DNA from: Paracoccaceae bacterium
GTDB taxonomy: Bacteria > Pseudomonadota > Alphaproteobacteria > Rhodobacterales > Rhodobacteraceae
Direction of reading: 5' to 3'
DNA length: 64,000 bases
Assembly (NCBI GenBank): GCA_958296035.1
Contig: OY282431.1
Span: 2,278,037 to 2,342,036, forward strand
The translations under genes and the position numbers were made by a program. The notes beneath the pieces are model-generated. The model was not told where the DNA came from. It did not search any database and saw only the letters and a list, made by a program, of their open reading frames with translations. This document shows, piece by piece, positions 592-51,133 of the stretch (position 1 is its first letter; each line of letters opens with the position of its first letter).

Positions 592-1185
592 CTAGCCCGC
601 CTTGGTGCCGTAGGCCGTACCCCAGCCCCAAGCGCCCGAACCGAAGCCGCGCTGCACGACACGCTCCCGATAGATCCCGGAAACGATATCGCTATCACCG
701 GCCAGAAGTGCTTTTGTTGCGCACATTTCTGCACACAAGGGCAGCTTTCCTTCGGCAATTCGGTTGCGCCCGTATTTGGAGAACTCCGCATTCGAATGGT
801 TTTCCTCGGGACCTCCTGCACAGAAGGTGCATTTGTCCATCTTGCCGCGTGAGCCGAATGCCCCGGCTTGCGGGAATTGCGGTGCTCCGAACGGACAGGC
901 GATCAGACAGTAGCCGCAGCCAATGCACAAATCCTTGGAGTGGAGAACGATTCCGTCATCATCCTGGTAGAAACAGTCCACCGGACAGACCGCCATGCAT
1001 GGTGCATCTGAACAATGCATGCAGGCGACCGAAATGGAACGCTCTCCCGGAATGCCGTCACTAATCGTGACAACCCGTCTCCGGTTGATACCCCAAGGTA
1101 CCTCGTTCTCGTTCTTGCAGGCTGTGACGCAGGCGTTGCATTCAATACAGCGTTCCGCGTCGACAAGAAACTTTGCTCTAGCCAT
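592..1185 (-). CDS. fdhB: Formate dehydrogenase beta subunit, four-cluster ferredoxin-like protein
   Basis: This 197-residue electron-transfer subunit carries electrons from the Mo/W catalytic subunit to the cytochrome b subunit. Cysteine sets for four [4Fe-4S] clusters are visible: CIECNACVTAC at residues 13-23, a second set at 55-71 (CMHCSDAPC...C...C), CIGCGYCLIAC at 87-97, and C119, C122, C151, C155. It lacks the C-terminal membrane helix of E. coli FdoH, so it is the shorter type found in many alphaproteobacteria. The ATG at 1185 is preceded by AGGAGA, which overlaps the stop codon of the alpha subunit gene; the two genes are probably translationally coupled. Confidence 0.93.
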   Translation of the reverse strand: MARAKFLVDAERCIECNACVTACKNENEVPWGINRRRVVTISDGIPGERSISVACMHCSDAPCMAVCPVDCFYQDDDGIVLHSKDLCIGCGYCLIACPFGAPQFPQAGAFGSRGKMDKCTFCAGGPEENHSNAEFSKYGRNRIAEGKLPLCAEMCATKALLAGDSDIVSGIYRERVVQRGFGSGAWGWGTAYGTKAG

Positions 1186-1197
1186 GGTTCAATTCTC

Positions 1198-4092
1198 CTA
1201 AGCTGCCCAGATCTTGCACAGGGTCGCCTTTGTCTCCTGCATCTGGGTCACCGAATCATACCCGTAGGTCTGTGCAGTGTTCGAGGATTCACCAAGCACA
1301 TAGGGATCAGCACCCTCTGGATACTTGTGCCGCAGATCGACTCCCTCAAGATGACCACCGAAATGGAATGGCATGAAGGTTACCCCTACTCCGACCCGTT
1401 CGGTCACCAGTGCCATCACCTTGACCTTGGCGCCTTCCGGCCCCTCGACCCAGACTTGGGCACCGTGGCGAACGCCGTTGTCATTGGCATCCCGCGGATT
1501 TATTTCCACGAACATGTCCTGCTGCAATTCAGCAAGCCACGGATTGGAACGACTCTCGTCACCGCCGCCCTCGTACTCGACCAGTCGTCCCGAAGTCAGG
1601 ATGAGCGGATACTCCTTGGAGAAATCCTGCTTCTGAATCGAGGCGTACATGGTTGGAAGCCGATAGAACTTGCGGTCCTCGTAGGTCGGATAATCCGCCA
1701 CCAGATCCCGCCGCGGAGCGTAGAGCGGCTCTCGGTGCAATGGTATTGGATCCGGGAAGTTCCACACCACCGTTCTTGCCTTGGCATTCCCGAACGGTGC
1801 ACAGCCATGCATGATCGCCACCCGCTGGATGCCTCCCGAGAGGTCGGTCTTCCAATTGGTCTTGGGTCCTGCAATGGCATCTATTGTCGCCCTCTCGGCC
1901 TCGGTCAGATCCGAGTCCCATCCAAGATCGATAAGCGACTGCATGGTAAATTCGGGATACCCGTCCTTGATCTCCGAACCGACGCTGTAGACACCCTCGG
2001 CCAAGAGATTCTCGCCGTCTCTTTCAACGCCGAATCGAGCCCTGAAGGTCAGACCGCCCTCAGCAACCGGCTTCGACATGTCGTAGAGATTGGGCGTGCC
2101 GGGATGACCCATTTCAGCGGTACCCCAACTTGGCCAGGGCATACCATAGTAATCACCGTCTGCAGGGCCACCCACGGCCAGCAGCGACGTGCGATCAAAG
2201 GTGTGCTGGTTGGCCATGTGAAGCTTGATCCGCTCCGGTGACTGACCAGTGTAACCGATCGTCCACATGCCGCGGTTGTACTCGCGGGTTATGTCCTCGA
2301 CATTCGGCTGCATTTCGCCGTCCATCGAGATGTTGCGGAACAGGCGATCGTGAAATCCGAACGCATTTGCGAACATGGCAATGATGTCCTGGTCGGGTCG
2401 CGACTCGAACACCGGCTCCACGACCCGGTCACGCCACTGCAGCGAGCGATTGGAAGCCGTAGCCGATCCTCTCGTTTCGAACTGCGTCGATGCCGGAAGC
2501 AGATAAACCCCGTCGGTGCGATCGTGCAGCACGGCCGATACCGTCGGATACGGATCAACGACGACAAGCATGTCGAGTTGCTCCATGGCAACCTTCATCT
2601 CTTTCTGCCGGGTCTGTGAATTGGGAGCATGGCCCCACAAAACCATTGCCCGCACCCGGTCAGGCTGATCCGTATTGTTCGGGTCTTCGAGAACACCGTC
2701 GATCCAGCGTGACACCGGAATGCCGGTCAGATTCATCAGTTTCTTTTCCTTGCCATCTGCACCCGTTGTGGTTGCAAACTGGCCTTTCAACCAATCGAGA
2801 TCCTCTTCCCAGACTCTGGCCCAGTGTGCCCACGCGCCGGCTGACAAGCCGTAATAGCCGGGAAGCGTGTGGCTGAGAACACCGAGATCAGTGGCGCCCT
2901 GCACATTGTCATGGCCGCGAAATATGTTGGTTCCACCACCCGATGTGCCCATGTTGCCGAGAGCAAGCTGCAGAATGCAGTAGGCCCGCGTGTTGTTATT
3001 GCCGTTGGTATGCTGCGTGCCGCCCATGCACCAGATCACCGTGCCCGGACGGTTATTGGCGAGGGTTCTGGTTACCCGGTGCAGTTGCGAGCCGGGGACA
3101 CCTGTCACCCGCTCAACCTCTTCGGGATGCCAGTGGGCGACTTCTTCCCGGATTCTATCCATGCCCCAGACTCTGGTACGGATAAATTCCTTGTCCTCCC
3201 AGCCATTCTCGAAGAGATGCCAGAGGATGCCCCATATCAGCGCAACATCCGATCCGGGCCGCAAGCGCACATATTCGTCGGCATGAGCTGCCGTGCGCGT
3301 AAACCTCGGGTCGCACACGATCAACGGTGCATTGTTGCGCTCCTTGGCACGCAAGACATGCAGCAACGACACCGGGTGAGCTTCAGCCGGATTTCCACCG
3401 ATGAGGAATATCGCCCGCGAGTTGTGAATGTCATTGTAGCTGTTGGTCATGGCACCGTAGCCCCAGGTATTGGCTACTCCGGCCACGGTCGTGGAATGGC
3501 AGATCCGCGCCTGGTGATCAACATTGTTGGATCCCCAGTATCCGGCAAACTTGCGGAACAGATAGGCCTGCTCATTGCTGTGCTTTGCCGAACCCAGCCA
3601 GTACACGCTGTCAGGCCCGCTTTCTTCGCGGATTTTCAGCATGCCTGCGGAAACTTCGTTAATGGCGTCTTCCCAGCTCATGCGAACCCATTCGCCATTT
3701 TCTTTCTTCATGGGATACTTGAGACGGCGCTCTCCATGTGCGTGTTCACGCACGGAGGCACCCTTGGCGCAATGTGCGCCCAGACTGAACGGGCTATCCC
3801 AACCCGGTTCCTGTCCGATCCACACCCCGTTGTCGACCTCGGCAATAACCGAGCAGCCGACGGAGCAATGGGTGCATACCGACTTGACGATTTCGACGGC
3901 ACCCTGACCGCTACCTTGTGCAGCTGCACCGGTGACTGTGCCACCGACCGCACCCAGTGCGCCAAGTCCGCCGATCGTCAAACCGGAGTTTTTCAGGAAT
4001 GCGCGCCTGTCCATCGACGTTTCAGCCGCATGCGACAGAAGCGAACTCCGCCGGGGGCGTCGCGCAACCCCATTGGTTTTCTTCCTAAGCAT
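1198..4092 (-). CDS. fdhA: Formate dehydrogenase alpha (catalytic) subunit, Tat-exported, cysteine type
   Basis: This is the catalytic molybdopterin subunit (964 residues) that oxidises formate to CO2. A twin-arginine motif (DRRAFLKNSG) precedes a hydrophobic stretch, so the folded enzyme should be exported to the periplasm. A [4Fe-4S] motif CTHCSVGC with a fourth Cys about 28 residues on lies near residues 73-108. The metal-binding position reads HQARICHS (Cys about 198), where E. coli FdnG has selenocysteine, so no SECIS element is needed. I place the start at ATG 4092 because a strong GGAGGAAAG precedes it; an upstream TTG at 4125 would add 11 residues but has no such site. The 3' end feeds directly into the beta subunit gene. 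The cysteine variant and the FdnG/FdoG-type subunit set indicate a respiratory enzyme rather than a soluble NAD-linked one. Confidence 0.95.
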   Translation of the reverse strand: MLRKKTNGVARRPRRSSLLSHAAETSMDRRAFLKNSGLTIGGLGALGAVGGTVTGAAAQGSGQGAVEIVKSVCTHCSVGCSVIAEVDNGVWIGQEPGWDSPFSLGAHCAKGASVREHAHGERRLKYPMKKENGEWVRMSWEDAINEVSAGMLKIREESGPDSVYWLGSAKHSNEQAYLFRKFAGYWGSNNVDHQARICHSTTVAGVANTWGYGAMTNSYNDIHNSRAIFLIGGNPAEAHPVSLLHVLRAKERNNAPLIVCDPRFTRTAAHADEYVRLRPGSDVALIWGILWHLFENGWEDKEFIRTRVWGMDRIREEVAHWHPEEVERVTGVPGSQLHRVTRTLANNRPGTVIWCMGGTQHTNGNNNTRAYCILQLALGNMGTSGGGTNIFRGHDNVQGATDLGVLSHTLPGYYGLSAGAWAHWARVWEEDLDWLKGQFATTTGADGKEKKLMNLTGIPVSRWIDGVLEDPNNTDQPDRVRAMVLWGHAPNSQTRQKEMKVAMEQLDMLVVVDPYPTVSAVLHDRTDGVYLLPASTQFETRGSATASNRSLQWRDRVVEPVFESRPDQDIIAMFANAFGFHDRLFRNISMDGEMQPNVEDITREYNRGMWTIGYTGQSPERIKLHMANQHTFDRTSLLAVGGPADGDYYGMPWPSWGTAEMGHPGTPNLYDMSKPVAEGGLTFRARFGVERDGENLLAEGVYSVGSEIKDGYPEFTMQSLIDLGWDSDLTEAERATIDAIAGPKTNWKTDLSGGIQRVAIMHGCAPFGNAKARTVVWNFPDPIPLHREPLYAPRRDLVADYPTYEDRKFYRLPTMYASIQKQDFSKEYPLILTSGRLVEYEGGGDESRSNPWLAELQQDMFVEINPRDANDNGVRHGAQVWVEGPEGAKVKVMALVTERVGVGVTFMPFHFGGHLEGVDLRHKYPEGADPYVLGESSNTAQTYGYDSVTQMQETKATLCKIWAA

Positions 4093-4199
4093 CGCTTTCC
4101 TCCAATTGACTCGTCGTTGTTTCAACGAATTGTCAGTCCAGTTTCAATCCCGGCCGCTGGGCGTCACGCAACCGTTGGCCAGGCCTCGTGAAAGGTCCG

Positions 4200-12086: not shown

Positions 12087-12749
12087 ACGCCCCTCCTGAC
12101 GCAAACTTATACGCGGGCTCAGGAACCGCAGCCGCGCGCCTGACAATATCCTATCCCTTTAGCATGCTTGACTCTATCAACTCTCGCGTCGTTTCATTCC
12201 TTGGTTGCCTTCCCTGAGGACGACGGCATCCGAGACCGATTTGGCGAGTATCTTCATCATTTCCCAAGGCTTCTGCGTCGCCGGCAACGGAAAACGCGTC
12301 GCGGGATGCACGCTGACACGCCTTCAGCATCGCAGAAATCGCCTTGGTCACTGCGGACCGACCGCCCGGCACCCGGATTTGCTACAGGCTATATTGCGGC
12401 GCGGGCACGTCGATTTCATAACCGGCCATATGGCTGCCAGCCAACTCCCTCACCCGCTAGTCCCGCGCCACCCGGAACAGGCGCGTTTCACGTAATCTCG
12501 TGATGCTATCAAAGGCTACACTCATCAGGTGCTCAGTGGCCTTGCCAAGCTGAATCTCCTCGTGTTTTCCATGAAGTTCCGAACGGTCGTGACGCTAATT
12601 CAAGGCGCCTGAGAGCAACTTAACGGGAATTGGTCCACCGCCGGGGCTGCGCAACACTCCGCGGCGACTGACATTAAGGTGCCAGAACGGATGTAATGCA
12701 GGAGGCAGGCGTCGCAACCTGTACGATCAGCGGACAGCATGACCGAACG
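12087..12749. other. Spacer between liuD and a TnpB remnant
   Basis: About 660 bases with no gene I can support. Short open frames on both strands have no motifs. The stretch lies between liuD and transposon-derived sequence and is probably part of the inserted or decayed segment. Confidence 0.4.
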
Positions 12750-13238
12750 CGCCGAGCCAAACGACATCCATTTGGGAACGCAGCAAAGGCCTTTTGGAGC
12801 GTTCGCCAGTCCTTCAGCCGCGACAGCAATCACTTTGCCAATCAGGCCGCGACTGTTGTTGTCGAGAAACTGAACACGCCGGGCATGACACGATCTGCCA
12901 GGGGCACGGCAGAGAAACCCGGCAAGCAAGTGAAGGCCAAGGCCGGTCTCGATCGCGGCATACTGGCCCCGGGCTGGCACCGGTTGCGGCAGAGGCTTGC
13001 CTACAAGGGCAGGGTTGTCGAAATCAACCCTGCCTGTACTCCACAGACCTGTCATTCCTGCGCGGATGCTCACCAGGCGTCCTGCCAGGGCAGGATGTTC
13101 AGTTGCGTGGCTTGCGGCCATGCGGACCTGAATGCGGCCCGCACCATCATGGCCGCCGGGACCGGGGCTTCTGCACGGCGAGAGGCGTTTGCTCTGGCAA
13201 CCTCCGTGACCCGTGAAACGGGTACAGTGACGACATGA
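12750..13238 (+). pseudogene. C-terminal remnant of a TnpB / IS200-IS605 OrfB protein
   Basis: The plus frame ending at 13238 reads like the C-terminal 40% of a TnpB nuclease. It has VVVEKLNTPGMTRSARGTAE (RuvC-II region with its Glu), GLDRGILAPGW, a VVEINPACTPQTCHSC zinc half-site, SCVACG as the second half-site, and HADLNAARTI, the RuvC-III aspartate motif. The N-terminal half, with the first RuvC Asp and the helical DNA-binding part, is missing: a full gene would need to begin inside liuD. No tnpA is present. It is a dead transposon scar, and it lies at one edge of the segment that separates liuB from liuD. Confidence 0.75.
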
Positions 13239-39238: not shown

Positions 39239-40054
39239 TCAGTACACGGCCGTCCGTACACCAGAATGTTCGCTCTCCATTCCGACGTGTTCGCGAACAT
39301 CACCGACATGCTTGCTGGCGGCAGCACTCAGCAAGCGCACATCGCTGAGCAGCGTTACCAGATCAAAGCCCCAGTCAATTGCCTTGATGGCATATTCGGT
39401 TGATGCCGTGTGAATCCCGGCCTTGATGCCTGCCGCATGACACACGTTCCTGATTCGGTGCAACGCCTCGATGAGTTCTGGTTCCTCCCGATCAAGGCCA
39501 GGCGCCAGACGGCCCTCGGTCAGCCCAAGCGTGAGATCAGCAGGCCCGATATAGACACCGTCAAGACCCGGAGTTGCGGCAATATCGGGAAGGTTGGCAT
39601 AGGCCTCCGCCGTCTCGACCATGGCCAGGCAAATGACATTGTCATTGGCTTCGCAAAAATAGTCTGGCCCACCGGAAAAAATGGCTCGGGTCGGACCAAA
39701 ACTGCGCGTGCCTTCTGGCGGGTACCGGACATAGGAAACGAACTCCTGTGCCTGCTCCCGGTTGTTGATCATAGGGCAGATTATGCCGTAAGCGCCGGCA
39801 TCTAGCATCTTCATGATAATGCCCGGGTCCAGCCAAGGGACTCTCGCCAGCGGTGTAACGTTGCTGGCGCGCATCGCCTGAAACATTTGTACAGCATCGC
39901 TGTAATCGACAACACCGTGCTGGGCATCGACTGTGATGCCGTCAAACGCCTGTGCTGCCATGACTTCGGCTGTAAGGGAATTCGGAATTGCGAGCCATCC
40001 ATTGAGAGCCGCCTTGCCGTTGTCCCAGGCCCGCTTGATCCTGTTCTTGATCAT
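39239..40054 (-). CDS. HpcH/HpaI-family aldolase
   Basis: A 271-residue class II pyruvate aldolase-like protein. Active-site markers are VDAQHGVVDYSDAV (His base), LARVPWLDPGIIMKMLDAGAYGIICPMI (Arg and the metal-site helix), VETAEAYANL (metal Glu) and DGVYIGPADLTL (metal Asp). Relatives cleave 4-hydroxy-2-oxoacids to pyruvate plus an aldehyde. ATG 40054 follows GGGAGATCGG. It is alone on its strand with hprK downstream; the substrate is unknown. Confidence 0.9.
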   Translation of the reverse strand: MIKNRIKRAWDNGKAALNGWLAIPNSLTAEVMAAQAFDGITVDAQHGVVDYSDAVQMFQAMRASNVTPLARVPWLDPGIIMKMLDAGAYGIICPMINNREQAQEFVSYVRYPPEGTRSFGPTRAIFSGGPDYFCEANDNVICLAMVETAEAYANLPDIAATPGLDGVYIGPADLTLGLTEGRLAPGLDREEPELIEALHRIRNVCHAAGIKAGIHTASTEYAIKAIDWGFDLVTLLSDVRLLSAAASKHVGDVREHVGMESEHSGVRTAVY

Positions 40055-41227
40055 CCGATCTCCCAACTCGCTTCCAACACTTGAATAAACGGTATTCCGG
40101 AAAACTGGGCGAGGTCCGCCGGTGAATTCAACCATCCTCGGAACTCGGAGGATTGCCAGCGATCTGGCGAGTATCAGCCATTATTGCCGAACCCCTCGAG
40201 GTGCAAGCTGTCGCCTCGGCCTGGTTGCGCATCCCGAAATGCGACAGAGCTTTCCCCACTTGCGCCCATCTGGACTGACTCAGGCCAATTCAACGGCCCA
40301 ATTGAGACTGATTTTCGTCACGCCGTGACAGTATTTGGCAAACGCCGGATAGACTGCCACAAAACACCTTCCCAGACACCAAATCCGGGGCTCCCCTTAT
40401 GATCCATGAAGGCGGCTCCCCTATTACCCTATCCATGCATATCCAGGACCACACTAACAGGATTTTCAGCCGCATGGGAAACGTCGCCGCGACCGAATTG
40501 ACCAACGCCCGTCAGCCCGCCTCCAGAACCCGGAAGAAATCCCCCACAGGCCAGTGCTGCAGCATCGCCAATTTCGAGCAGCCTCCTTAACTGTCTGGAA
40601 TGCCCTACGACCTGAAAAGAGGGACGATCTGGAAAGAAAGAAGTACGGCACCCAATCTCGACACAAGTGGGCAAGAGTGCATCGGCATTGACAGGGAAGA
40701 GTCTGAAAGCGTGACGACTTGGATTCGCAATTACCCCCGCCGAATCCACCGATCAGCACGAGGCTGCCATCGCCACGCGACTCGACCGGTTGACCCGCGC
40801 TGTCGAACGGCTCAAATACCATGTTACATTCGGCATTGAGGCACTTTCGCTCCTTGTCGGATTCTGACTCACAACTACACTGCCGCTGCCCAATATCCTG
40901 CGCGAGGATGGCAAGGCCAAGCGCCGCAAACGCTATGACGGGTCTGTTCTGCACTTGCGGATGATGACAATTCCTCGAAGTCGCAACTTTTTCAATGAGC
41001 CATTGAATTCACGGCGTTATGCAAATATCATTTTCGGAGCAAAACCACGCGCATTGGGAACACAGAGGCAACCGAAAATCGGACCGATTGGCCAGGACAT
41101 CAGCCCCAGGCTCAAAGACGGCAAAGGCAGATCTGTGATTCCTGCTGAACTGCAGAGTGGATTCACATCCACAACAAACACATTCAACCTCTTCATCATG
41201 ACATAGATAAGCCAAGGAAATTGCCAA
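40055..41227. other. 1.2-kb region with no supported gene
   Basis: Frames on both strands between 40400 and 41000 compete. A plus-strand frame at about 40711-40866 gives a helical peptide (EAAIATRLDRLTRAVERLKY) without a start codon. A minus-strand frame starting at 40954 has a hydrophobic N-terminus (IAFAALGLAILA) but loses plausibility after about 70 residues. One may be the tail of a decayed gene. The right end carries the promoter region of the TTT operon. Confidence 0.4.
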
Positions 41228-42214
41228 ATGCAAAAGTTCTCACGTAGATTTCTGCCGCTTGTTGTCGTTGCACTGTCGATCCTTGCCGGTGCATCTGCTG
41301 CATTCGGTGACGCCATGTTGCAAAAGCCCGAGGGTTTTGGTGACCGACCGCTGACCATGATTGTTCCCTATGGCTCCGGCGGCGGCTCCGACCAGCTGTC
41401 GCGAGCTATGGCGGCGGCAATGACCGAAGCTGCCGGGCTTGAGTTTCAGGTCGTTAACAAGCCAGGTGGTGGTGGCACGGCGGCCATCCCCGACTTTATG
41501 CTTGCCAGGGCCGATGGCTACACGGTTCTCGAGCACATTGATGACGCAGTTTCGGCCTACGCCTCCGGCAGCATTGCCGAGAACCCCGCCGTCGACTGGA
41601 TTCCACTTTGCATGGCACAGATTACATTCAGCCAGGTCTACATCCGCAGCAACGAAGACCGCTTTTCCAACTGGGAGGAATTTGTGGCCTGGCTAGGTGG
41701 CAATTCCGGTACCGCTACAATGGCCAATGTCGGCAAGGTGGGTTCGATGGAACTTACGGTCATGGAACAGCTTGAATCGGCTCTCGGCATCGAGATCAGC
41801 CAGATTTCCTTCGACAAGCCCGCCGAGCGTTATGCAGCGCTGGTTGGCGGTCATGTCGATCTGCTTTTCGAACAGCCGGGTGATGTTCGCAATCTGACCG
41901 ACGCCGGCGAAATCAAACCCATCCTTACCTTTCTCAGGGAACGGCCCGATGTATTTGCAGACGTGCCGACTCATATCGAGGCCGGCGCAGACTTCGAACC
42001 GCTTACCCGCTTTCGGGGATTTTACGTGAAGAAGGGTGTTCCGGAAGAAATCGTCAGTTTCCTGTCCGCCGCCTGCAAGGCTGGATTCAACACCGACAGT
42101 TTTCAGGAGTTCAATCGCAAGAAGTACATGCACCTGATCGACAGTTTCCGAGACACTGAGGGATCCATTGCATTGATTAACGACGCTATCGACACCTATA
42201 GCGCGATGAACTAG
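41228..42214 (+). CDS. Tripartite tricarboxylate transporter substrate-binding protein (TctC family)
   Basis: A 328-residue periplasmic binding protein with a Sec signal (about 1-27). Family motifs are LTMIVPYGSGGGSDQLSRAM, VVNKPGGGGTAAIPDFM (ligand-binding Pro-Gly-Gly loop) and a late AGADFEPLTRFRGFYVKKG. AAGGAAATTGCC precedes the ATG. It leads a plus-strand operon with TctB, TctA, an acylating aldehyde dehydrogenase and two CoA-ligase subunits. TTT proteins bind carboxylates or sulfonated carboxylates; the downstream enzymes should tell which. Confidence 0.93.
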   Translation: MQKFSRRFLPLVVVALSILAGASAAFGDAMLQKPEGFGDRPLTMIVPYGSGGGSDQLSRAMAAAMTEAAGLEFQVVNKPGGGGTAAIPDFMLARADGYTVLEHIDDAVSAYASGSIAENPAVDWIPLCMAQITFSQVYIRSNEDRFSNWEEFVAWLGGNSGTATMANVGKVGSMELTVMEQLESALGIEISQISFDKPAERYAALVGGHVDLLFEQPGDVRNLTDAGEIKPILTFLRERPDVFADVPTHIEAGADFEPLTRFRGFYVKKGVPEEIVSFLSAACKAGFNTDSFQEFNRKKYMHLIDSFRDTEGSIALINDAIDTYSAMN

Positions 42215-42364
42215 CTGGTCGGTACAGGAACCTGCGACGCCGCAGCTTATGCAATTCCAGACTGCGCAAGCAGTCACGTACATGTCAATGCTTATTCAAT
42301 TCTGTCAGTCGGTTCCACGGCCAGCATGAGCCGCGCCTCGTAAGCGATCAAGGAAACGACAGGT

Positions 42365-42916
42365 ATGACTGACCTTCGGTACGCAGGCAAGCCAGTCGCG
42401 GAGTGGCTCGTCTGGATCGCAATTGCCGGTATTGCCTATAGTCAGACCGGTCACTTCGACATGGAAATCAAGCAATACGCATTCGGTGCAGATGGCTGGC
42501 CAACAGCCATTTGCATCGGGCTTGTGCTGGGCGCCACAGGACAACTCATTTATCAGTTGACGCGATTGCCTCGCAGTTTCCCAGCTGCATCCCCTGGGGC
42601 CGCTGTCAAATCGATGAAGTTGCTGCCGAGCAGGGGGATGGCGCAACGTGTTGCCATTTTCATGCTGCCCTTCGTATTTCTGTATCTTACGCCGATCTTC
42701 GGCGCGTATGTCAGCGTGCCACTCTTTGTGCTGGCCATGCTGATCCTGCTGGATGTCCGGTCGCCAAGGACCCTGATCGGTGTGACAGCCATCATCTATG
42801 CCGTTCTCCTCCTCGTATTCACGCGAATATTCTATGTTGCACTACCGACCGGCAGAATCGACCTCCTCTACGAGTTCAACACCGCGTTGATCGTGCTCTC
42901 GAGAATGGGACTATAG
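42365..42916 (+). CDS. Tripartite tricarboxylate transporter small membrane subunit (TctB family)
   Basis: A 183-residue membrane protein with four helices: about 18-34, 42-60, 99-135 (a double pass around VAIFMLPFVFLYLTPIFGAYVSVPLFV) and 140-165. It assists the large TctA permease. AGGAAACGACAGGT lies before the ATG. A 150-base gap separates it from the binding-protein gene, the usual site for processing that leaves more binding protein than permease. Confidence 0.85.
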   Translation: MTDLRYAGKPVAEWLVWIAIAGIAYSQTGHFDMEIKQYAFGADGWPTAICIGLVLGATGQLIYQLTRLPRSFPAASPGAAVKSMKLLPSRGMAQRVAIFMLPFVFLYLTPIFGAYVSVPLFVLAMLILLDVRSPRTLIGVTAIIYAVLLLVFTRIFYVALPTGRIDLLYEFNTALIVLSRMGL

Positions 42917-42924
42917 AACGCCCC

Positions 42925-44451
42925 ATGGAACAGTTTCTAACCGGAACCGCAGCGCTCTTTGGTGACCTGACCAGTATAACAATATTTGTCTGTGGTCTGG
43001 TCGGAGGCGCGCTGTTTGGTGCGGTTCCTGGTGTCAACATGCTGACACTGGGTGCGGTGCTGCTGCCCTTTACAATCTCCATGGAACCCGGCCATGCGGT
43101 TATGCTGTTTTCGGTCATCTACTGTTCGGGGGTGTTTGGCGGGGCCATAACCGCTATCCTGTTCAACATTCCCGGGGCACCTGAGAATGCCCCCACCTGC
43201 CTGGACGGCTATCCGATGACGGTCAGCGGGCGGGCCGGCAAGGCAATTGGCGCAGCGGTGTGCTGCTCGGCATTGGGAGGCGTGGCCTCGGCCATCCTGA
43301 TGATGTCGGCCACGGGCGCGATCGCCGGCTGGGCTGTGCGTGCCTTTGGTCCCCAGGAGGTCTTTTCCCTGATATTCTTTGGCCTGGTCGTATCGGCATC
43401 AATGGGCGCCTCAAACCTGTGGAAAGGGTGGCTGTCAGTTTTTGCGGGACTGCTGATCGCCACCGTGGGCACCGATCCGGTCGGCGGCATTGCTCGCTTT
43501 GGCGAGTGGACGCTGTTTGATCTGCACTACAAGTCATACTACCTCTCGGCCGGCATTCACTTCATCCCGATGATTCTGGGCTTCTTTGCAATCTCGGAGG
43601 TACTGGTACAGGCAACCAATATCTCGCTAGGAGTGCGCGAACGACCCAAGGCATCACTGGAGTTTCCCTCGCTGGCAGAATTCTGGCGCGTTCGTTTTAC
43701 GTTGCTCCGATCAACCCTGATTGGATTCTTTGCAGGTATCCTGCCCGGGATCGGCGCCACACTGGCGGCCTTTCTCGGCTACAGTCAGGCATTGCGGTGG
43801 TCGCGGCATCGAGACAATTTTGGCAAAGGCGAGATTGAGGGCGTCGTGGCGTCGGAAACCGCCAACAATGCCGCCACCGGGGCCGCCATGATTCCACTTC
43901 TTGCACTTGGGTTGCCAGGTGGTGCGCTGACGGCCATGATCTTGGGCATTTTCCAGATTCATGGCATGGAGCCGGGCCCCCTGATATTCATCAACTCGGG
44001 TGACCTGGTCTGGGTGACGTTCGCGGCGATGTTCTGGGCCAATGTCGCCATTGTGCTGCTTGGTTGGGTACAGACCAAGACCGTTGTGCACATCTTGCGC
44101 CTGCCATTTCGCTGGCTGGCACCCGGAATACTGATACTTGCAACCATCGGTGCCTATGCGCTGCGCAATCTCATGATTGACGTGTGGGTCATGTTCGTGG
44201 CAGGTGTCCTTGCCTATCTACTCCGGGCGAGCGGATATTCTGCGGCGGGCGTTATCCTGGGACTCATACTTGGCAAGTTGGGAGAATCGGCCTTTTCCAA
44301 GTCCATGCAGTTGATGGACTACAATATATTCGGATTCTTTGCGCGTCCGATATCCGCTACACTGATCATATTCGCCGTGGTCGCCCTGGCGGCTTCGATA
44401 ATCGGCGAGCTTCGCGGAGACAGGCGGCAGAACCGACCCTCGGAAACATAA
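42925..44451 (+). CDS. Tripartite tricarboxylate transporter large permease (TctA family)
   Basis: A 508-residue, roughly 12-helix permease. Signatures: GALFGAVPGVNMLTLGAVLLPFT-type N-terminal repeat (VPGVNM), FNIPGAPENAPTCLDGYPM, GILPGIGATLAAFLGY (second repeat), and SETANNAATGAAMIPLLALGLPGG. It imports the substrate captured by the binding protein using an ion gradient. It begins 8 bases after the tctB stop. The following dehydrogenase starts 21 bases after its end. Confidence 0.94.
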   Translation: MEQFLTGTAALFGDLTSITIFVCGLVGGALFGAVPGVNMLTLGAVLLPFTISMEPGHAVMLFSVIYCSGVFGGAITAILFNIPGAPENAPTCLDGYPMTVSGRAGKAIGAAVCCSALGGVASAILMMSATGAIAGWAVRAFGPQEVFSLIFFGLVVSASMGASNLWKGWLSVFAGLLIATVGTDPVGGIARFGEWTLFDLHYKSYYLSAGIHFIPMILGFFAISEVLVQATNISLGVRERPKASLEFPSLAEFWRVRFTLLRSTLIGFFAGILPGIGATLAAFLGYSQALRWSRHRDNFGKGEIEGVVASETANNAATGAAMIPLLALGLPGGALTAMILGIFQIHGMEPGPLIFINSGDLVWVTFAAMFWANVAIVLLGWVQTKTVVHILRLPFRWLAPGILILATIGAYALRNLMIDVWVMFVAGVLAYLLRASGYSAAGVILGLILGKLGESAFSKSMQLMDYNIFGFFARPISATLIIFAVVALAASIIGELRGDRRQNRPSET

Positions 44452-44472
44452 ATGCAGTAGAGCAGGACGGGA

Positions 44473-45915
44473 ATGACCGGCGCAAATGTAGAGCCAGTGC
44501 TGCGCAGCGAAGGGCAGGACGAGAACATTGTAATGCACGTTGCCTCCCTAGTCGAGCGGGCACGTGCGGCAATGGATCACTTCAGGAATGACGACCAGGA
44601 ATGCGTTGACCAGACTGTAAGGGCGCTGGCATGGTCTGTTTACAATTCCGAGAATGCGACCCTATTGGCAGTCATGGCTGTCCGGGACACCAGTCTCGGC
44701 AATGTTGAATCCAAGATCCTGAAGAATCGCCGCAAGACCTTTGGCACGCTGCGGGACCTGCTGCGGGTCAAGACTGTCGGCATCATCGAGGAGGATCCGT
44801 CCCGCGGCCTTGTTCTGTATGGCAAACCAGTGGGTGTGGTTGCAGCATTATGCCCCTCGACCAATCCATCTGCGACACCGGTCAACAAGGCCATGATGGC
44901 CATCAAGGGCGGTAATGCGATCATTATCGCGCCCTCCCCTGCCGGCTATCGAACCTCTGCAAGAACGGTATCCCTGATGCGGGCTGAACTGAAGAAATGC
45001 GGACAACCGGAGGATCTTGTTCAGGTGCTGCCCGCCCCGGTCACACGCCAGATGACGCGTTGCCTGGTGTCGCAGGCCGACCTGGCTGTAATAACCGGCT
45101 CGCAGAACAACGTCAGGTCAGCCATGGAAACCGGTACGGTCTCAATCGGTGTCGGGCCAGGCAATGTACCGGTCATCATTGACAGTACAGCCGATTTGGC
45201 AGATGCAGCTGACAAGATCAGGAGATCGAAGACATTCGACTACGCAACTTCGTGTTCGTCGGAAAACTCGCTGATCATCCTTGCCGATATCTACGAAGCG
45301 GCAATCGCTGAACTGGAAGCCGTTGGCGGCCGGCGGAGTTCTCCCGAAGAATGCGAACGATTGCGAAAAATCCTGTGGCGCGACGGAAATCTCAACCGGG
45401 AGGTCATAGCCTCGAGCCCCATCTTCCTGGCCCGAACCTGCGGAATGTCGTTCGATCCCGATAGGCTCCAGTTCCTGATTGTGGAGCAGGATACCATAGA
45501 TGGCGCTCATGGATTTGCCGACGAAAAACTTTCGCCAGTCCTGGCGGTTTACCGTGCTGAGTCCCTTGACCAGGCGATCGAACTCGCCAGTGACATTCTT
45601 GCAGTTAGAGGTCGGGGTCACTCGGTGGGCATTCATACGCGCTGTATTGACCACGCCAGGCGCGTTGCTGAGCGTACAGATGTGGTGCGGGTCCTGGTAA
45701 ACCAGGCGCATACATTTGGCAATGGCGGCAGTTTTGACAACTGCCTCCCCTTTACACTGTCGATGGGTGGCGGCACCTGGGCAGGAAACAGTATTTCCGA
45801 AAACCTCAATTACCGGCACTTTATCAACGTAACGCACCTGGTCACCACGATTGCCGAGGACAAGCCATCCGAGGAGGAGTTGCTCGGTCCATATTGGAAA
45901 CAGGTGGGCGTGTAG
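44473..45915 (+). CDS. CoA-acylating aldehyde dehydrogenase (sulfoacetaldehyde dehydrogenase-like)
   Basis: A 480-residue aldehyde dehydrogenase of the acylating (EutE/AdhE/SauS) class. Motifs: ALCPSTNPSATPVNKAM, the dinucleotide region ITGSQNNVRSAM, SIGVGPGNVPVIID, and the catalytic cysteine in YATSCSSENSLIIL. VNQAHTFGNGG...LPFTLSMGGGTWAGNS near the end matches EutE-type enzymes. It would interconvert an acyl-CoA and an aldehyde with NAD(P)H. AGGACGGG precedes the ATG. With the SCS-like ligase downstream and a TTT importer upstream, sulfoacetaldehyde dehydrogenase (SauS) is my leading reading. Acetaldehyde, malonate-semialdehyde or succinate-semialdehyde dehydrogenase are alternatives. Confidence 0.82.
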   Translation: MTGANVEPVLRSEGQDENIVMHVASLVERARAAMDHFRNDDQECVDQTVRALAWSVYNSENATLLAVMAVRDTSLGNVESKILKNRRKTFGTLRDLLRVKTVGIIEEDPSRGLVLYGKPVGVVAALCPSTNPSATPVNKAMMAIKGGNAIIIAPSPAGYRTSARTVSLMRAELKKCGQPEDLVQVLPAPVTRQMTRCLVSQADLAVITGSQNNVRSAMETGTVSIGVGPGNVPVIIDSTADLADAADKIRRSKTFDYATSCSSENSLIILADIYEAAIAELEAVGGRRSSPEECERLRKILWRDGNLNREVIASSPIFLARTCGMSFDPDRLQFLIVEQDTIDGAHGFADEKLSPVLAVYRAESLDQAIELASDILAVRGRGHSVGIHTRCIDHARRVAERTDVVRVLVNQAHTFGNGGSFDNCLPFTLSMGGGTWAGNSISENLNYRHFINVTHLVTTIAEDKPSEEELLGPYWKQVGV

Positions 45916-46098
45916 AGGACATCCAGCGGTTGTCCTGGCAAGATGACTGGCAGACTCCATCCACCGTTTGAGCAGGTCATACGAGGTGTGTTCAGCCCGG
46001 CATGAACGGCCGTCCGAGGGTGGCGGTGCGAGAAACTGGACAGGCGATTTGCTTCCCATAAAGACCAGGCATTCAGATCTGTTGGTGAGGAGAGCATA

Positions 46099-47232
46099 GT
46101 GGCAGACTTTTGCGAGCATGTCGGTAAGGTGCTGCTGGCTGAGGCCGGAATTGCCGTGCCAGAAGGCGTGTTGGTTCGCGCGGCTTCCCAGGCGGCGGCG
46201 GCCTTCGACGAGTTGGGTGAGTGTGTCGTCAAGGCACAGGTTCCGGTCGGCGGGCGCGGTCTGGCCGGAGGTATCCAGCGCGCTGGCAACGCCGAGGAAA
46301 CCGCCCGCGCCGCAAACGAAATCCTCGGCATGCATATTGGTGATCATGACGTCACGACTTTGCTGATTGAAAGGCAAATCCAGACCTGCCACGAATTCTA
46401 TGCTGCGATCCTCAACGATACGGCTTCACGAGGTCCGTTGCTCGTCTTTTCGACCGCAGGTGGCATGGATGTCGAGAATTCCTTCACACTGGCGCCTGCG
46501 AAGTCTGTCAAGTACAGCATCAGTCTCCACACCGGTCTGAGTTTCGACACCGCTCGCCGGGCTGTCAGCCATCTGGTTGGCGGGGAGAGTGTTGACAGCG
46601 TCGCAGACACGCTGGCCAGGCTATACGATGTATACCTGGACACCGACGCAGAACTCGTCGAAATCAACCCGCTGGCCATTGATATGACCGGCAAGGCGAT
46701 GGCGCTGGACTGTAAACTTGTTGTGGATGATTCAGCCATATCGAGGCAGCCGGCGCTGGCCGCCCAGAAGGCGCATCGGCCGGAAAGTCGACTGGAGACG
46801 AAGGCGGCGCGTTCGGGGCTGAAATACATTGATTTGGATGGGTCCGTAGGCATCCTCGCCAATGGGGCGGGACTAACCATGACAACCATGGATGCGGTTG
46901 AGACTTACGGTGGCAAGCCGGCTAACTTTCTCGAAATCGGCGGCGAGGCATATACGATAGCAGGCACCGCCACAGAACTGTTGCTTGACAACCCTGATGT
47001 CAGGTCCGTCTTGGTCAATTTCTGCGGTGCGTTTGCTCGCACGGATGTCATGGTCAAGGGTGTAATCGAGTCCTGGAAGGCCATCGATCCTCAGGTTCCC
47101 GTATTCTTCACTGTGCATGGTACCGGTGATCGAGAGGCGCGCGCCATGATCCGCAGGGATCTGGGACTTGAACCGTTTGAAAACATGGATGACGCCGTCA
47201 GGGCAGCTGTAGCTGCAGGGAGTTCAAAATGA
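46099..47232 (+). CDS. Succinyl-CoA synthetase-like beta subunit (ADP-forming acyl-CoA ligase)
   Basis: A 377-residue ATP-grasp subunit. VVKAQVPVGGRGLAGGI (nucleotide-binding), VEINPLAID (metal-site), a VGILANGAGLTMTTMDAVETYGG segment and FLEIGGEA follow SucC order. Low similarity to housekeeping SucC (e.g. PVGGRGLAGG for HAGGRGKAGG) suggests another acid substrate, as in malate thiokinase or sulfoacetate-CoA ligase. It starts at GTG 46099 after GAGGAGAG and overlaps its alpha partner by four bases. A 183-base gap separates it from the aldehyde dehydrogenase gene. Confidence 0.85.
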   Translation: MADFCEHVGKVLLAEAGIAVPEGVLVRAASQAAAAFDELGECVVKAQVPVGGRGLAGGIQRAGNAEETARAANEILGMHIGDHDVTTLLIERQIQTCHEFYAAILNDTASRGPLLVFSTAGGMDVENSFTLAPAKSVKYSISLHTGLSFDTARRAVSHLVGGESVDSVADTLARLYDVYLDTDAELVEINPLAIDMTGKAMALDCKLVVDDSAISRQPALAAQKAHRPESRLETKAARSGLKYIDLDGSVGILANGAGLTMTTMDAVETYGGKPANFLEIGGEAYTIAGTATELLLDNPDVRSVLVNFCGAFARTDVMVKGVIESWKAIDPQVPVFFTVHGTGDREARAMIRRDLGLEPFENMDDAVRAAVAAGSSK

Positions 47233-48131
47233 TTTTGCGGCGGCACAATCGTATTTTGGTGTTCGGACTGACCGGGCGGCAAGCGACCTTTTGGGCCGGC
47301 AAGATGATCGCCTACGGTGCCCCGATAGTCGGAGGTGTCAATCCTCGCAAACCTGGAATTCAGCACCTGGGGCTTCCTGTATGGGCATCGGCCAAGGATG
47401 CGTCGGCAAATTGCGAATTCGATACAGCACTGCTCTTTGTTCCGACCACAGCTGCGCTCTCCGCTACCGTCGATGCTCTTGAGGCCGGCGCGAAAGTCGT
47501 CATTTGCCTTACCGAGCATGTTCCGGTTCGGGATGTCATGAAAATGGTGGCTATGGCAAACCGCTGCCACGCCTGTTTGATCGGCCCCAATACCGCTGGC
47601 CTAGTGACACCTGGCGAAACATTTGCCGGAATTATGCCAGCATTCAATGCACAGGTGTTTCGGCCCGGTGAGGTCGGCGTTGTATCGCGCTCGGGAAGTC
47701 TGGGGACCCTGGTATGCCTGAACCTGGTTCAAAGCGGCCTAGGCATCTCGGCGTTTTGCGGGGTGGGCGGTGATCCAATCATAGGTACTACCTCGCGGCA
47801 GGCCTTGGCAGTGATGGCGGTGGACAGAAAGACGAAGGCCATTGTCCTTTGTGGCGAAATAGGTGGCAGTGCCGAGGAAGAGGCTGCAGAATATGCTGCT
47901 ACGATTTCCAAGCCGGTAGTTGCCTTCGTTGCCGGACGAAGCGCTCCGGTCGGCAAGAGGATGGGGCATGCCGGTGCAATCGTGTCAGGCCGTACCGGAA
48001 CCTTTGCAAGCAAGGTCAGGGCATTGGAGCGCAATGGCGTTGCCGTTGCGCATCTTCCCAGCGCAATTCCCGATCTTGTCGCGGATGCCCTGCAAATTCG
48101 ACCGCAATCAAGATCCGGCCCAGAGACCTGA
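47229..48131 (+). CDS. Succinyl-CoA synthetase-like alpha subunit (ADP-forming acyl-CoA ligase)
   Basis: A 300-residue CoA-binding subunit. The Rossmann CoA domain (FGLTGRQATFWAGKMIAYGA, VGGVNPRKPG) is followed by IGPNTAGLVTPGE, the phosphohistidine-loop region SRSGSLGTLVCLNL, and the phosphorylated His in MGHAGAIVSG. It forms an alpha-beta ligase with the gene just upstream (ATGA overlap). CoA activation of the imported acid would precede reduction by the acylating dehydrogenase. Confidence 0.86.
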   Translation: MILRRHNRILVFGLTGRQATFWAGKMIAYGAPIVGGVNPRKPGIQHLGLPVWASAKDASANCEFDTALLFVPTTAALSATVDALEAGAKVVICLTEHVPVRDVMKMVAMANRCHACLIGPNTAGLVTPGETFAGIMPAFNAQVFRPGEVGVVSRSGSLGTLVCLNLVQSGLGISAFCGVGGDPIIGTTSRQALAVMAVDRKTKAIVLCGEIGGSAEEEAAEYAATISKPVVAFVAGRSAPVGKRMGHAGAIVSGRTGTFASKVRALERNGVAVAHLPSAIPDLVADALQIRPQSRSGPET

Positions 48132-48136
48132 CGGTC

Positions 48137-48718
48137 TCAGCGCCGCGACCTGCTCCCGAACATAGCGGGCGAACTGTAGAGACGGTGTTTGAAGTTGCGG
48201 GCGTACTGCGTCTTGAGATCCCTCCGCTCGCGCTTGGAAAGATTCGGATGGTATGCCAAGGCACTGTGCTCCTCGCAATAGGGCTTCCCGGTCTGAACAG
48301 TCTGCTTGCCGCAAAACCAGAAATTGGGCGTTGATGGATCGCCAACTGGCCATCTACAGGACCGCTCGGTCAACTCCATTAGTACCGTACGTTTGTCTTC
48401 AATGGCCTCAGCGGCATCCTTGGCTTCGGCCGCCTCTGCGTCCGATGCCTCCTGGGCCTCACCTCCCGGTTGTGTGTCGCCCGCTTCGCCATCCTTGGCG
48501 GGCTGGGCGTCATCATCACCTTCCTCCGTCTGGGTGACAGCAGATCCGTGTTTGACCTTGAGACGATACATCTTGCCGATAACGGCGCGCCGTGTCTTGC
48601 CGATCTTGTTGCCGATCTCGGCCGCTGTATGGCTGTTCCGCCACATGGTTGAGGCTGTATCCACTTGGTCGTCCGTCCATGTTGGCGGCGTCGAATTGGT
48701 TGTCTCTTCAACGGTCAT
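48137..48718 (-). CDS. gcrA: GcrA family cell cycle regulator
   Basis: A 193-residue alphaproteobacterial regulator that binds methylated GANTC sites with RNA polymerase sigma-70. The N-terminal helix-turn-helix reads TWTDDQVDTASTMWRNSHTA...TRRAVIGKMYRL (about 12-55). A low-complexity Ala/Glu/Asp linker (about 60-108) and the C-terminal domain LTERSCRWPVGDPSTPNFWFCG...YCEEHSALAYHP follow. AGGAGA lies eight bases before ATG 48718. It converges with the CoA-ligase alpha gene with only 5 bases between stops. This is a strong clade marker. Confidence 0.93.
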   Translation of the reverse strand: MTVEETTNSTPPTWTDDQVDTASTMWRNSHTAAEIGNKIGKTRRAVIGKMYRLKVKHGSAVTQTEEGDDDAQPAKDGEAGDTQPGGEAQEASDAEAAEAKDAAEAIEDKRTVLMELTERSCRWPVGDPSTPNFWFCGKQTVQTGKPYCEEHSALAYHPNLSKRERRDLKTQYARNFKHRLYSSPAMFGSRSRR

Positions 48719-49017
48719 GGAAAATTCTCCTGGCAAGCGAAGGAACGTCCTGAGGCAAGTGATGCCGCGCGGTCTTCCTTCATTGGGAGCCGCAATGTTT
48801 ACTGGTAGAGCAGGCAACCGGAGCGGCACTCCACCAAGACACATATAAACCAGCATTCATATTGCAAGTGGCACCAACGTCTCTTCCAGGCGGCTTGTCC
48901 GGCCGGTCAAAACAAGGGTGTGACCAATTCAAGCTCAACGTAAACGGGCAAACGCGTATACCCCTGTTCTTCATTACTTCAGATGATTGCAAAAACTGAT
49001 CGTCAACAGCTTTTGGG

Positions 49018-49150
49018 GATGTAACCCGTTCGCCCGCCTGCCGGAGATAGGCGAGATTGAAGCCAACAATTTCAACCTGAACATCTCGCGTTATGTCAGC
49101 ACAGCCGAACCAGAAGTCGAGATCAAGGAGCAGATTCAGGAGTCAACGGC
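49018..49150 (+). pseudogene. Fragment resembling the C-terminus of a type I restriction methylase (HsdM)
   Basis: The plus frame reads GEIEANNFNLNISRYVSTAE followed by PEVEIKEQIQE. The pattern EI-x-x-N-x-(Y/F)NLNI-x-RYV is the end of HsdM N6-adenine methylases. Neither the methylase core nor hsdS/hsdR is present, so it is a scar. It ends against the truncated 3' end of the GHKL ATPase gene on the other strand. Called by motif only. Confidence 0.5.
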
Positions 49151-49751
49151 AGCACAACGTATTTCCGAAGGAACCCGGGCTATCCCCAATGAGCAATTGA
49201 GGCGGCGCAAGCCGACATTGGTCATTCCCGTCAAATTCCTTGAAAGTTCCGAGAGCATGATCCTGGTTCCGTTAGGATGGTCGTCGGGCCAATCAGTAAG
49301 CTCCTCAGGTGTGTAGGCTTCGTGGGTACCGGTCTTGATCTGTTCGCGGATAGTGTCTCGATTCATTCTAAAGGCGGTTCGCTCACCGCTGCCGGAGGTA
49401 TAAGGCTCGACGATCTTGGCGATGGAAAACGCAGACAGTTTTCCGATGCCTTTCCGGCCCATGGGCAAACGCCCTCTTGGTGTTGTTTGCCCAGGCTCTG
49501 AACGTCTTTTGAACCCGACATTGAGAAAGTGGTCGATCACCTGGTCTCGGGTCATCCCCATTGCCGTTGTCGTCGATCGTGATCCTTCCTGCGCCTCTGT
49601 CGAGATCAATATCCACCTTGGTTGCGTCGGCATCCCAAGCGTTCGCCACGATCTCCGACAGCACGGACGGGACGTTGCTATACAGATTCATGCCCAAATG
49701 CTCGAGCGCATTCAGGCTGATTGTCATCTCAAGCTTCCGCTGTTCAGGCAT
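49136..49751 (-). pseudogene. Frameshifted and truncated GHKL (HSP90/MORC-like) ATPase of a restriction-modification locus
   Basis: Frame 1 starts at ATG 49751 (ATG overlaps the methyltransferase stop by 8 bases) and shows the N-box SEIVANAWDADATKVDI and the G1 box DDNGNG. It then goes out of frame at a run of four C (49556-49559, plus strand). Frame 2 continues directly with MTRDQVIDHFLNVGFKRR and the G2 box GRKGIGKLSAFSIAKIV, then a TRIMLSELSRNL segment, and stops at 49136. One extra base explains the break. The protein also ends about 200 residues in, where these ATPases normally continue for several hundred. GHKL ATPases paired with cytosine methyltransferases are known from restriction systems. 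Confidence 0.78.
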
Positions 49752-50799
49752 TCATGGTCCTCACACCATGCTCGGCCAGATGATCACGAACTGATCGGGC
49801 AATCGCCCGTGCAAGGGGAACGGGTACTGCGTTTCCGATCATTCGGCCGACAGTCCTGAATGAGATTTGGTCACCATCGGCAACGAATTGATAGTCTGTC
49901 GGGAAGCCCTGCAGTATCGCGCCCTCCCGCAGGGACAGTGCCCGATCCTGAGAGGGGTGCCCAAATCTTCCGTTTCCAAACCCATAGAACTGCGTTGTTA
50001 TGGTAGGGGCGGGTCGATGAGGGGCCATTCGACCGTACACAGAGGAATAACCGCTACCGGTCTTCACCCTATGGCATTTGGAGACGAGGTGTGGGGGCCA
50101 GTCCCTCCATGTGCCGCCAGGAGTGGAGGCTCGAATTCGTTCGAGGTTGATTGCGGAAAGTCGGCTTGCCCGATGCAGTGGATCCTTCTGATCGGAGCCA
50201 CCGGCACTCAGGGCCGGAAGTGATCCGATTTCCATTTCAACGGTGCGATATTCGCTCTTGTGTGTGGGTTTGGGTAAAGAAACTGTGCCCAGTTGCGAAG
50301 CTAGCAAGACCAAGCGTGATCGGGATTGGGCAAGCCCATAGTTTGGACCGTAAAGGATGTCGAAAGCAACCTCGTAACCAGCCGATCTCAGGGTGTCCGT
50401 AAAGTTTCCGAAGACGGTTCCTCCGCGAAAATTCAGCAGACGTGGGACGTTCTCCATCGAAACGACGTCAGGTTCGGTCTCTACAATAAGGCGGCCGAAG
50501 TCTTGGAGTAGTTTCCAACTCGGATCGTCATTCTTCTGGTTATATGTAGAGAATGGTTGGCATGGCGCACAGCCAACCAAGACGGAGTGCGTCCGCTTTC
50601 GGTATAGTTCCTTGAGTGTGGGGCCAGCGAGAGAAGAGACATCCTGGCAAAGGAATGGTGCCCCGATGTTCGCTTCGTATGCGTGCCTGCAAACTTCATC
50701 GGCATCAATGCCGGCGATTACGGCAAATCCTTCGTCAAGGAAGCCGTAGGACAATCCGCCAGCGCCGCAGAACAGGTCGATGACCGATGTTGATTTCAT
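49744..50799 (-). CDS. dcm: DNA (cytosine-5) methyltransferase
   Basis: A 351-residue C5 methyltransferase with ordered motifs: I VIDLFCGAGGLSYGF, IV GCAPCQPFSTYNQ (catalytic Cys), VI VSMENVPRLL, VIII QSRSRLVLLAS, and IX-X with RTVGRMIGNAVPVPLA. The target-recognition region between VIII and IX is short (about 120 residues). ATG 50799 is preferred (AAGG six bases upstream); ATG 50811 is possible. The partner ATPase downstream is broken, so the methylase may now be an orphan modifier. The recognition site cannot be read. Confidence 0.92.
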   Translation of the reverse strand: MKSTSVIDLFCGAGGLSYGFLDEGFAVIAGIDADEVCRHAYEANIGAPFLCQDVSSLAGPTLKELYRKRTHSVLVGCAPCQPFSTYNQKNDDPSWKLLQDFGRLIVETEPDVVSMENVPRLLNFRGGTVFGNFTDTLRSAGYEVAFDILYGPNYGLAQSRSRLVLLASQLGTVSLPKPTHKSEYRTVEMEIGSLPALSAGGSDQKDPLHRASRLSAINLERIRASTPGGTWRDWPPHLVSKCHRVKTGSGYSSVYGRMAPHRPAPTITTQFYGFGNGRFGHPSQDRALSLREGAILQGFPTDYQFVADGDQISFRTVGRMIGNAVPVPLARAIARSVRDHLAEHGVRTMNA

Positions 50800-51133
50800 G
50801 GAAGCCTTCATCAATCGGCTGTCCTCTAACGATCCGCCAACTTGCGGTCGTCCAGTAGTCCGTTAACCTGCAATGCCCTGAGACGGAGAATCCTCACTGA
50901 CTTGTCGCGTTTGTGTGCCACGTTCCTTTTCGATTTCCTGATCCGAGGCAAGGCCATGAATTGAATTGCAGCATGGGCGGCCTTGCGCCCCAACTGGTAA
51001 ACTCCTACGATCCAGATCATTCTACAATTTCATCATAAACTTGTCGAAGGTACATAGTGTGCAGTTTGCGGGAAGGGTACAACGCATCTTAAAAACGGTT
51101 CCAGCAAGCTGTGGGTGTTTCAATTGATTTCAT

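Follow-up and report, generated by a model that had tools for sequence, protein, structure and literature searches.

Taurine and the plant sulfosugar sulfoquinovose are sources from which some bacteria release the small sulfonate sulfoacetate (PMC12625764, PMC12890257). Three dominant sponge symbionts from the Arctic were described as carrying gene clusters of the sauST and sauSCD types, all with a tripartite tricarboxylate transporter (TTT), and as having xsc and pta too (PMC12625764, 2025). That paper credits SauCD and SauXYZ to the work of Liu (2023) on Bilophila wadsworthia, while SauCD, SauS, and SqwD/SqwKL are summarised in PMC12890257. Here we describe an operon of TTT and sauSCD genes in a 64,000-nt stretch (the window) of contig OY282431.1 from a Paracoccaceae bacterium. 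Sequence comparisons indicate that this operon is very probably the front end of a sulfoacetate-degrading pathway. Since sauSCD with a TTT has been published (PMC12625764), the system is already described in kind and the locus studied here is a further case.

The operon itself was confirmed. As the first-pass annotation of this DNA had proposed, six plus-strand genes encode TctC, TctB, TctA, an aldehyde dehydrogenase, and a SucC/SucD-like pair, and all six proteins passed their Pfam cut-offs (Table 1; coordinates are window positions unless called genome positions). In the gene order from tctC to sauC the intergenic gaps are 150, 8, 21, and 183 bases, and sauC and sauD overlap by 4 bases. A single pairwise alignment of the 183-base sauS–sauC gap with the sister genome G003 showed no clear conservation. 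The 3' neighbour of sauD is a convergent minus-strand frame (48137-48856), by eye GcrA.

Table 1. Genes of the TctCBA–SauSCD operon, with window positions and model scores.
Product	Position	Strand	Family evidence
TctC-type binding protein of TTT transporter (SauXYZ-like), 328 aa	41228..42214	+	Pfam PF03401 69.5 bits, cut-off 27
TctB small membrane subunit, 183 aa	42365..42916	+	Pfam PF07331 37.0 bits, cut-off 29.1
TctA large membrane subunit, 508 aa, ATG at 42925	42925..44451	+	Pfam PF01970 413.5 bits, cut-off 28.9
SauS, predicted CoA-acylating sulfoacetaldehyde dehydrogenase, 480 aa	44473..45915	+	NCBIfam NF047625 711.9 bits, cut-off 600; Pfam Aldedh 87.6
SauC, predicted ADP-forming acyl-CoA ligase, ATP-grasp (beta) subunit, 377 aa, GTG start	46099..47232	+	ATP-grasp_2 144.2 + Ligase_CoA 51.2
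SauD, CoA-binding (alpha) subunit with phospho-His motif, 300 aa	47229..48131	+	CoA_binding 62.7 + Ligase_CoA 53.9

The identification of the dehydrogenase as SauS, a predicted CoA-acylating sulfoacetaldehyde dehydrogenase, is well supported. It scored above the cut-off of the SauS equivalog model NF047625, which was passed in none of the 14 control genomes, and missed all three models of acetaldehyde dehydrogenases (EutE/AdhE), reaching 345.3, 297.4, and 203.2 bits against cut-offs of 951, 620.1, and 403. The cysteine of the TSCSSENS motif (residues 259-266), already proposed as catalytic, aligns with the motif cysteine of E. coli EutE and AdhE. Counting references, the alignments held 101 SauS, 74 SauC-type, and 60 SauD-type rows after selection by coverage (>85%) and length; in the SauS and SauC sets the window is represented a second time by its own copy (L095), and a few genomes are likewise duplicated. 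In a quick, midpoint-rooted tree of the 101 rows, the dehydrogenase was nested among the SauS proteins that adjoin SauC, and its nearest row, after its own copy, was the SauS of G003, a genome of its own genus. The Caballeronia SauS, encoded beside an AMP-binding ligase, formed a separate starred branch with five relatives. E. coli EutE and AdhE fell outside SauS on long branches, so their exact placement is unsure. The comparison with EutE suggested in the first-pass annotation thus came out in favour of SauS, and the identity of an EutE/AdhE acetaldehyde dehydrogenase was rejected on the family scores and the tree. It should be noted that NF047625 is blind to the type of ligase, as the Caballeronia SauS scores 800.3 bits. 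An Enterococcus gilvus plasmid match, considered as a potential control for HpfXYZ, belongs to another cluster (dehydrogenase, phosphate acyltransferase, butyrate kinase) and was used solely as an outgroup row.

The ligase pair has the ATP-grasp domain and the phospho-histidine motif of a two-subunit enzyme and lies in an operon with SauS. The phospho-histidine of KRMGHAGAI in SauD, noted earlier as SucD-like, was kept in all 60 aligned rows. SauC missed both SucC cut-offs (320.9 of 370 and 289.6 of 375.55 bits) as well as that of the malate-CoA ligase beta subunit (221.2 of 604), and SauD missed both SucD cut-offs (319.3 of 353.2 and 311.3 of 336). Meanwhile, a canonical SucC is encoded elsewhere (genome 2510694-2511875; 509.3 bits, cut-off 375.55) with a SucD-like gene adjoining. 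When compared with SucC of E. coli and of the source genome, the subfamily has FCG in place of IFG in 72 of 72 SauC rows, within the motif NFCGAFARTD, and GG[ED][AS] in place of GGGA in 65 of the 72. Likewise, where the two SucD references read GPNC and SRSGTL, 58 of 58 SauD rows read GPNT and SRSGSL. These counts exclude the E. coli and own SucCD rows, the rows are related to one another, and two of the 72 SauC rows stem from the window. As a literature search found no paper on the succinate-binding residues of SucCD, we did not place the replaced motifs in the substrate pocket. The identity of a succinate or malate ligase was rejected on the family scores and motifs, and these, together with the separate canonical SucC, also make a ligase that takes nothing but succinate improbable. 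An ordinary activation of succinate, malate, or malonate followed by reduction to the semialdehyde is highly improbable, in spite of the SucCD fold of the ligase, the name of the best solved relative of the dehydrogenase (8cei, succinate-semialdehyde dehydrogenase (acetylating), E 5.9e-84), and a linked Azospirillum SauC that just attains a succinate-ligase cut-off: the missed succinate and malate cut-offs, the separate SucC with its SucD-like neighbour, and the uniform GPNT and SRSGSL all argue against it.

Candidates for the remaining steps were found in the source genome (one contig, 3,644,635 bases, 95.03% complete). The window has no match to the Xsc or TauE models, in agreement with the earlier observation that it holds neither Xsc nor a sulfite exporter. 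The proposed genome-wide search revealed Xsc at genome 3565134-3566861, about 1.24 Mb from the operon, and so refuted the absence of xsc. Its score of 910.8 bits (cut-off 676.4) was the only one above the cut-off among 14 matches in this genome, the cut-off was passed in none of the 14 control genomes, and the protein also scored 1004.5 bits with the sulfoacetaldehyde acetyltransferase subfamily model. A phosphotransacetylase gene adjoins xsc on the same strand, with 330.3 bits for PRK09653 (cut-off 310); it falls just short of the cut-off of the more stringent Pta equivalog model (307.5 of 311.2). Directly upstream of xsc, also on the same strand (L005 14912-15586), a YjbE-family putative metal transport membrane protein is encoded (180.4 bits, cut-off 134.8).

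At a third place (genome 3434053-3436830), we found a SoeA-like protein with 58% identity over 935 aa to its Azospirillum counterpart, followed downstream by SoeB-like (57%) and SoeC-like (38%) genes. No NCBIfam model gave a score above its cut-off for these proteins, and the Azospirillum record names them molybdopterin oxidoreductase, 4Fe-4S protein, and DmsC-type anchor; we call them SoeABC-like after what we take to be the layout of sulfite dehydrogenase. The search for tauE returned two TauE-family proteins (71.6 and 57.9 bits, cut-off 32.6), which say little because 14 of 14 control genomes also have matches above the cut-off of this model. No taurine-binding protein above the cut-off was found in the source genome (best 138.3 of 304.25 bits). 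Thus, every pathway step has a nameable candidate, spread over three chromosomal places.

To examine the linkage of these genes, we took the 80 of 143 relatives most like the operon SauS, all with loci in named genomes; the counts therefore lean to the operon's own type, and loci L105-L116 were left out of them. At least 600 bases are available downstream of SauS in 76 loci, and in 64 of these the next gene is SauC. In eight of the remaining 12 there is a gene for a SauT-like AMP ligase, directly downstream in seven, and four have neither (L019, L064, L069, L077). Xsc (>60% identity) was present in 24 of the 80 loci and TctA of any identity in 31, some of the latter just 33-44% like the operon TctA. 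Of the 31 loci whose flanks reach at least 7 kb to the left and 5 kb to the right, 29 have SauC, 12 Xsc, 13 TctA, and 18 Xsc or TctA.

Several clusters join the parts that are scattered in the source genome. The cluster of Afifella pfennigii reads TctCBA-SauSCD-Xsc-Pta, and that of Albidovulum RHO1_bin_2 (G022), a bin assigned to Paracoccaceae by NCBI and belonging to the source genome's own family in the genome set, reads TctCBA-SauSCD-Xsc-SoeABC (SoeABC-like). A plasmid of Azospirillum argentinense carries a phosphotransacylase, TctCBA, SauSCD, SoeABC-like genes, a hypothetical protein, and xsc. Some bins that bear the labels Gammaproteobacteria, Nitrospira, Chloroflexota, and Acidimicrobiales likewise hold SauCD/TTT clusters.

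Xsc also accompanies SauS at the level of whole genomes. In 101 genomes, the source genome included, SauS was above the cut-off in 16 and Xsc in 40. Xsc passed in 14 of the 16 genomes with SauS versus 26 of the 85 without it; with no correction for kinship, the Fisher p is 2.8e-5 when genomes are counted and 0.0027 when genera are counted. In the source genome's own genus, SauS was above the cut-off in all nine genomes of the set.

The TctCBA proteins make up a complete TTT, each being above its Pfam cut-off. TctC is 68-75% identical to the TctC encoded beside SauSCD in Afifella, Albidovulum, and the own-genus genomes G002, G006, and G007; TctA is 76-79% identical to the TctA that adjoins SauSCD in genomes of its own genus, Albidovulum, and Afifella. 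Four further TctA of the source genome are at most 37% identical to the operon TctA.

We infer the substrate, the direction of flux, and the joint action of the three loci, and the reaction chemistry is taken from family knowledge. TctCBA would import sulfoacetate, and SauCD would spend ATP, via the phospho-histidine on SauD, to make sulfoacetyl-CoA. SauS, using its catalytic cysteine and NAD(P)H, would reduce sulfoacetyl-CoA to sulfoacetaldehyde, which Xsc would convert with phosphate to sulfite and acetyl phosphate. Phosphotransacetylase would then yield acetyl-CoA, and the SoeABC-like enzyme of the third locus may oxidise the sulfite.

The flux could in principle run in reverse, from sulfoacetaldehyde to sulfoacetate with a gain of ATP, the transporter serving another substrate. 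SqwD/SqwKL of some fermenting bacteria, the same two enzyme types, are reported to do this (PMC12890257, PMC11489063). We consider it unlikely here: an importer that depends on a binding protein is encoded alongside, and some relatives also have linked Xsc and SoeABC-like genes, whose products would use up sulfoacetaldehyde and sulfite. Slightly less probable still is that the operon acts on a different short or sulfonated acid, for instance 3-sulfopropionate, which HpfX/HpfYZ, again of the same enzyme types, accept while sulfoacetate is not accepted (PMC11489063). The score of the dehydrogenase above the SauS equivalog cut-off and the linkage of Xsc and SoeABC in relatives speak for sulfoacetate instead.

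Sulfoacetate was also the substrate preferred in the first-pass annotation, and the SauS score, the presence of Xsc, and the linkage in relatives point the same way. The annotation had kept the substrate open, malonate and malate included; the Xsc and SoeABC-like genes linked in relatives narrow it to sulfoacetate.

Several observations weigh against sulfoacetate degradation by this operon. Sequence alone cannot settle the substrate because the related ligase HpfYZ takes 3-sulfopropionate and not sulfoacetate (PMC11489063). The succinate-ligase cut-off is an unclean separator, since the xsc-linked Azospirillum SauC scores 370.0 bits at the NF001913 cut-off of 370, and SauCD was likened to the clusters of B. 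wadsworthia and the sponge symbiont OTU3 by their published description (PMC12625764). In the source genome, xsc and soe are unlinked to the operon; no Xsc lies nearby in 19 of the 31 long-flank loci; and G001 and G040 have SauS, yet their Xsc matches are partial or below the cut-off. The weakest link of the proposed pathway is the transport role, because TctCBA is absent from G003 (L130, G003:C311, 3801-8797), where the same GcrA-like and HpaI-like genes flank SauSCD, and TctA identity reaches only 35% in G003 and 34% in G005, both fragmented assemblies (about 350 and 630 contigs). In G003 the absence of TctCBA refers to this locus.

A role in the pathway for the divergent HpcH/HpaI-family gene (39239-40135) was considered and dropped. 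It looks like shared chromosomal context, as its G003 counterpart (77%) accompanies HprK-, PTS EIIA-, and GcrA-like neighbours (by eye) beside SauSCD. In the own-genus genomes G002, G006, and G007 (L131, L132, L134), the genes downstream of SauD resemble siroheme synthase and sulfite reductase by eye, which suggests a tie to sulfur assimilation. A second SauS-like dehydrogenase, below the cut-off with 462.3 and 428.2 bits, was seen in L137 (G008:C69:24000-36000) and L138 (G051:C29:35000-46000), respectively. Its gene directly precedes that of an Xsc/acetolactate-synthase-like thiamine pyrophosphate (TPP) enzyme (about 280 bits), with Gfo/Idh oxidoreductase-like and TIM-barrel protein genes upstream of the pair by eye. 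By coordinates, the SauS-like/TPP-enzyme pair is also present in G004, G007, G009, and G020.

Elsewhere in the window, at 592-4125, a formate dehydrogenase-like alpha subunit (461.1 bits, below the cut-off of 666.25) lies alongside a beta subunit of the FDH3 type (338.6 bits, cut-off 240). The frame at 12696-13238, with CxxC motifs, resembles by eye the C terminus of a TnpB-type transposon protein, an apparent remnant. At 49136-50814, a DNA cytosine methyltransferase-like gene stands beside two overlapping frames, by eye pieces of a GHKL-type ATPase gene.

On balance, we lean slightly towards a broader view, in which SauCD with a dedicated TTT importer would be widespread in Alphaproteobacteria as the entry route for sulfoacetate, supplying Xsc and SoeABC so that the compound is mineralised completely. 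The SauC and SauD motifs could then mark sulfonate-specific ligases that now pass as relatives of succinate-CoA ligase, and they are testable as such markers. The importer would be an exchangeable module, as TctCBA is missing at the same chromosomal place in the sister genome. Such a capacity for sulfoacetate is easily overlooked, because the Azospirillum plasmid record carries only the generic names 'aldehyde dehydrogenase family protein', 'ATP-grasp domain-containing protein', and 'CoA-binding protein' for SauS, SauC, and SauD.

When the locus is set beside known systems, SucCD shares with SauCD the fold, the ATP-grasp domain, and the phospho-histidine motif, whereas the operon pair misses the SucCD family cut-offs, has distinct motifs, and occurs in a genome with a canonical SucC elsewhere. 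SqwD/SqwKL and HpfX/HpfYZ also combine an acylating dehydrogenase with an ADP-forming ligase for a sulfonated acid, but they do so in anaerobes, where they run oxidatively, and HpfYZ takes 3-sulfopropionate but not sulfoacetate (PMC12890257, PMC11489063). The sauST cluster of Cupriavidus necator (Weinitschke 2010, via PMC12625764) has SauS and the sulfoacetyl-CoA route in common with the proposed pathway and uses a one-subunit AMP-binding ligase and an MFS transporter in place of SauCD and the TTT; the Caballeronia plasmid cluster, with its SauS on a separate tree branch, fits this type. The clusters of B. wadsworthia and OTU3 are described with the same gene set as here, namely a TTT, SauS, and a two-subunit ADP-forming ligase (PMC12625764). 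B. wadsworthia converts sulfoacetaldehyde to isethionate, on which the radical enzyme IseG acts (PMC12890257), whereas the source genome encodes Xsc and phosphotransacetylase; OTU3 carries xsc and pta too (PMC12625764).

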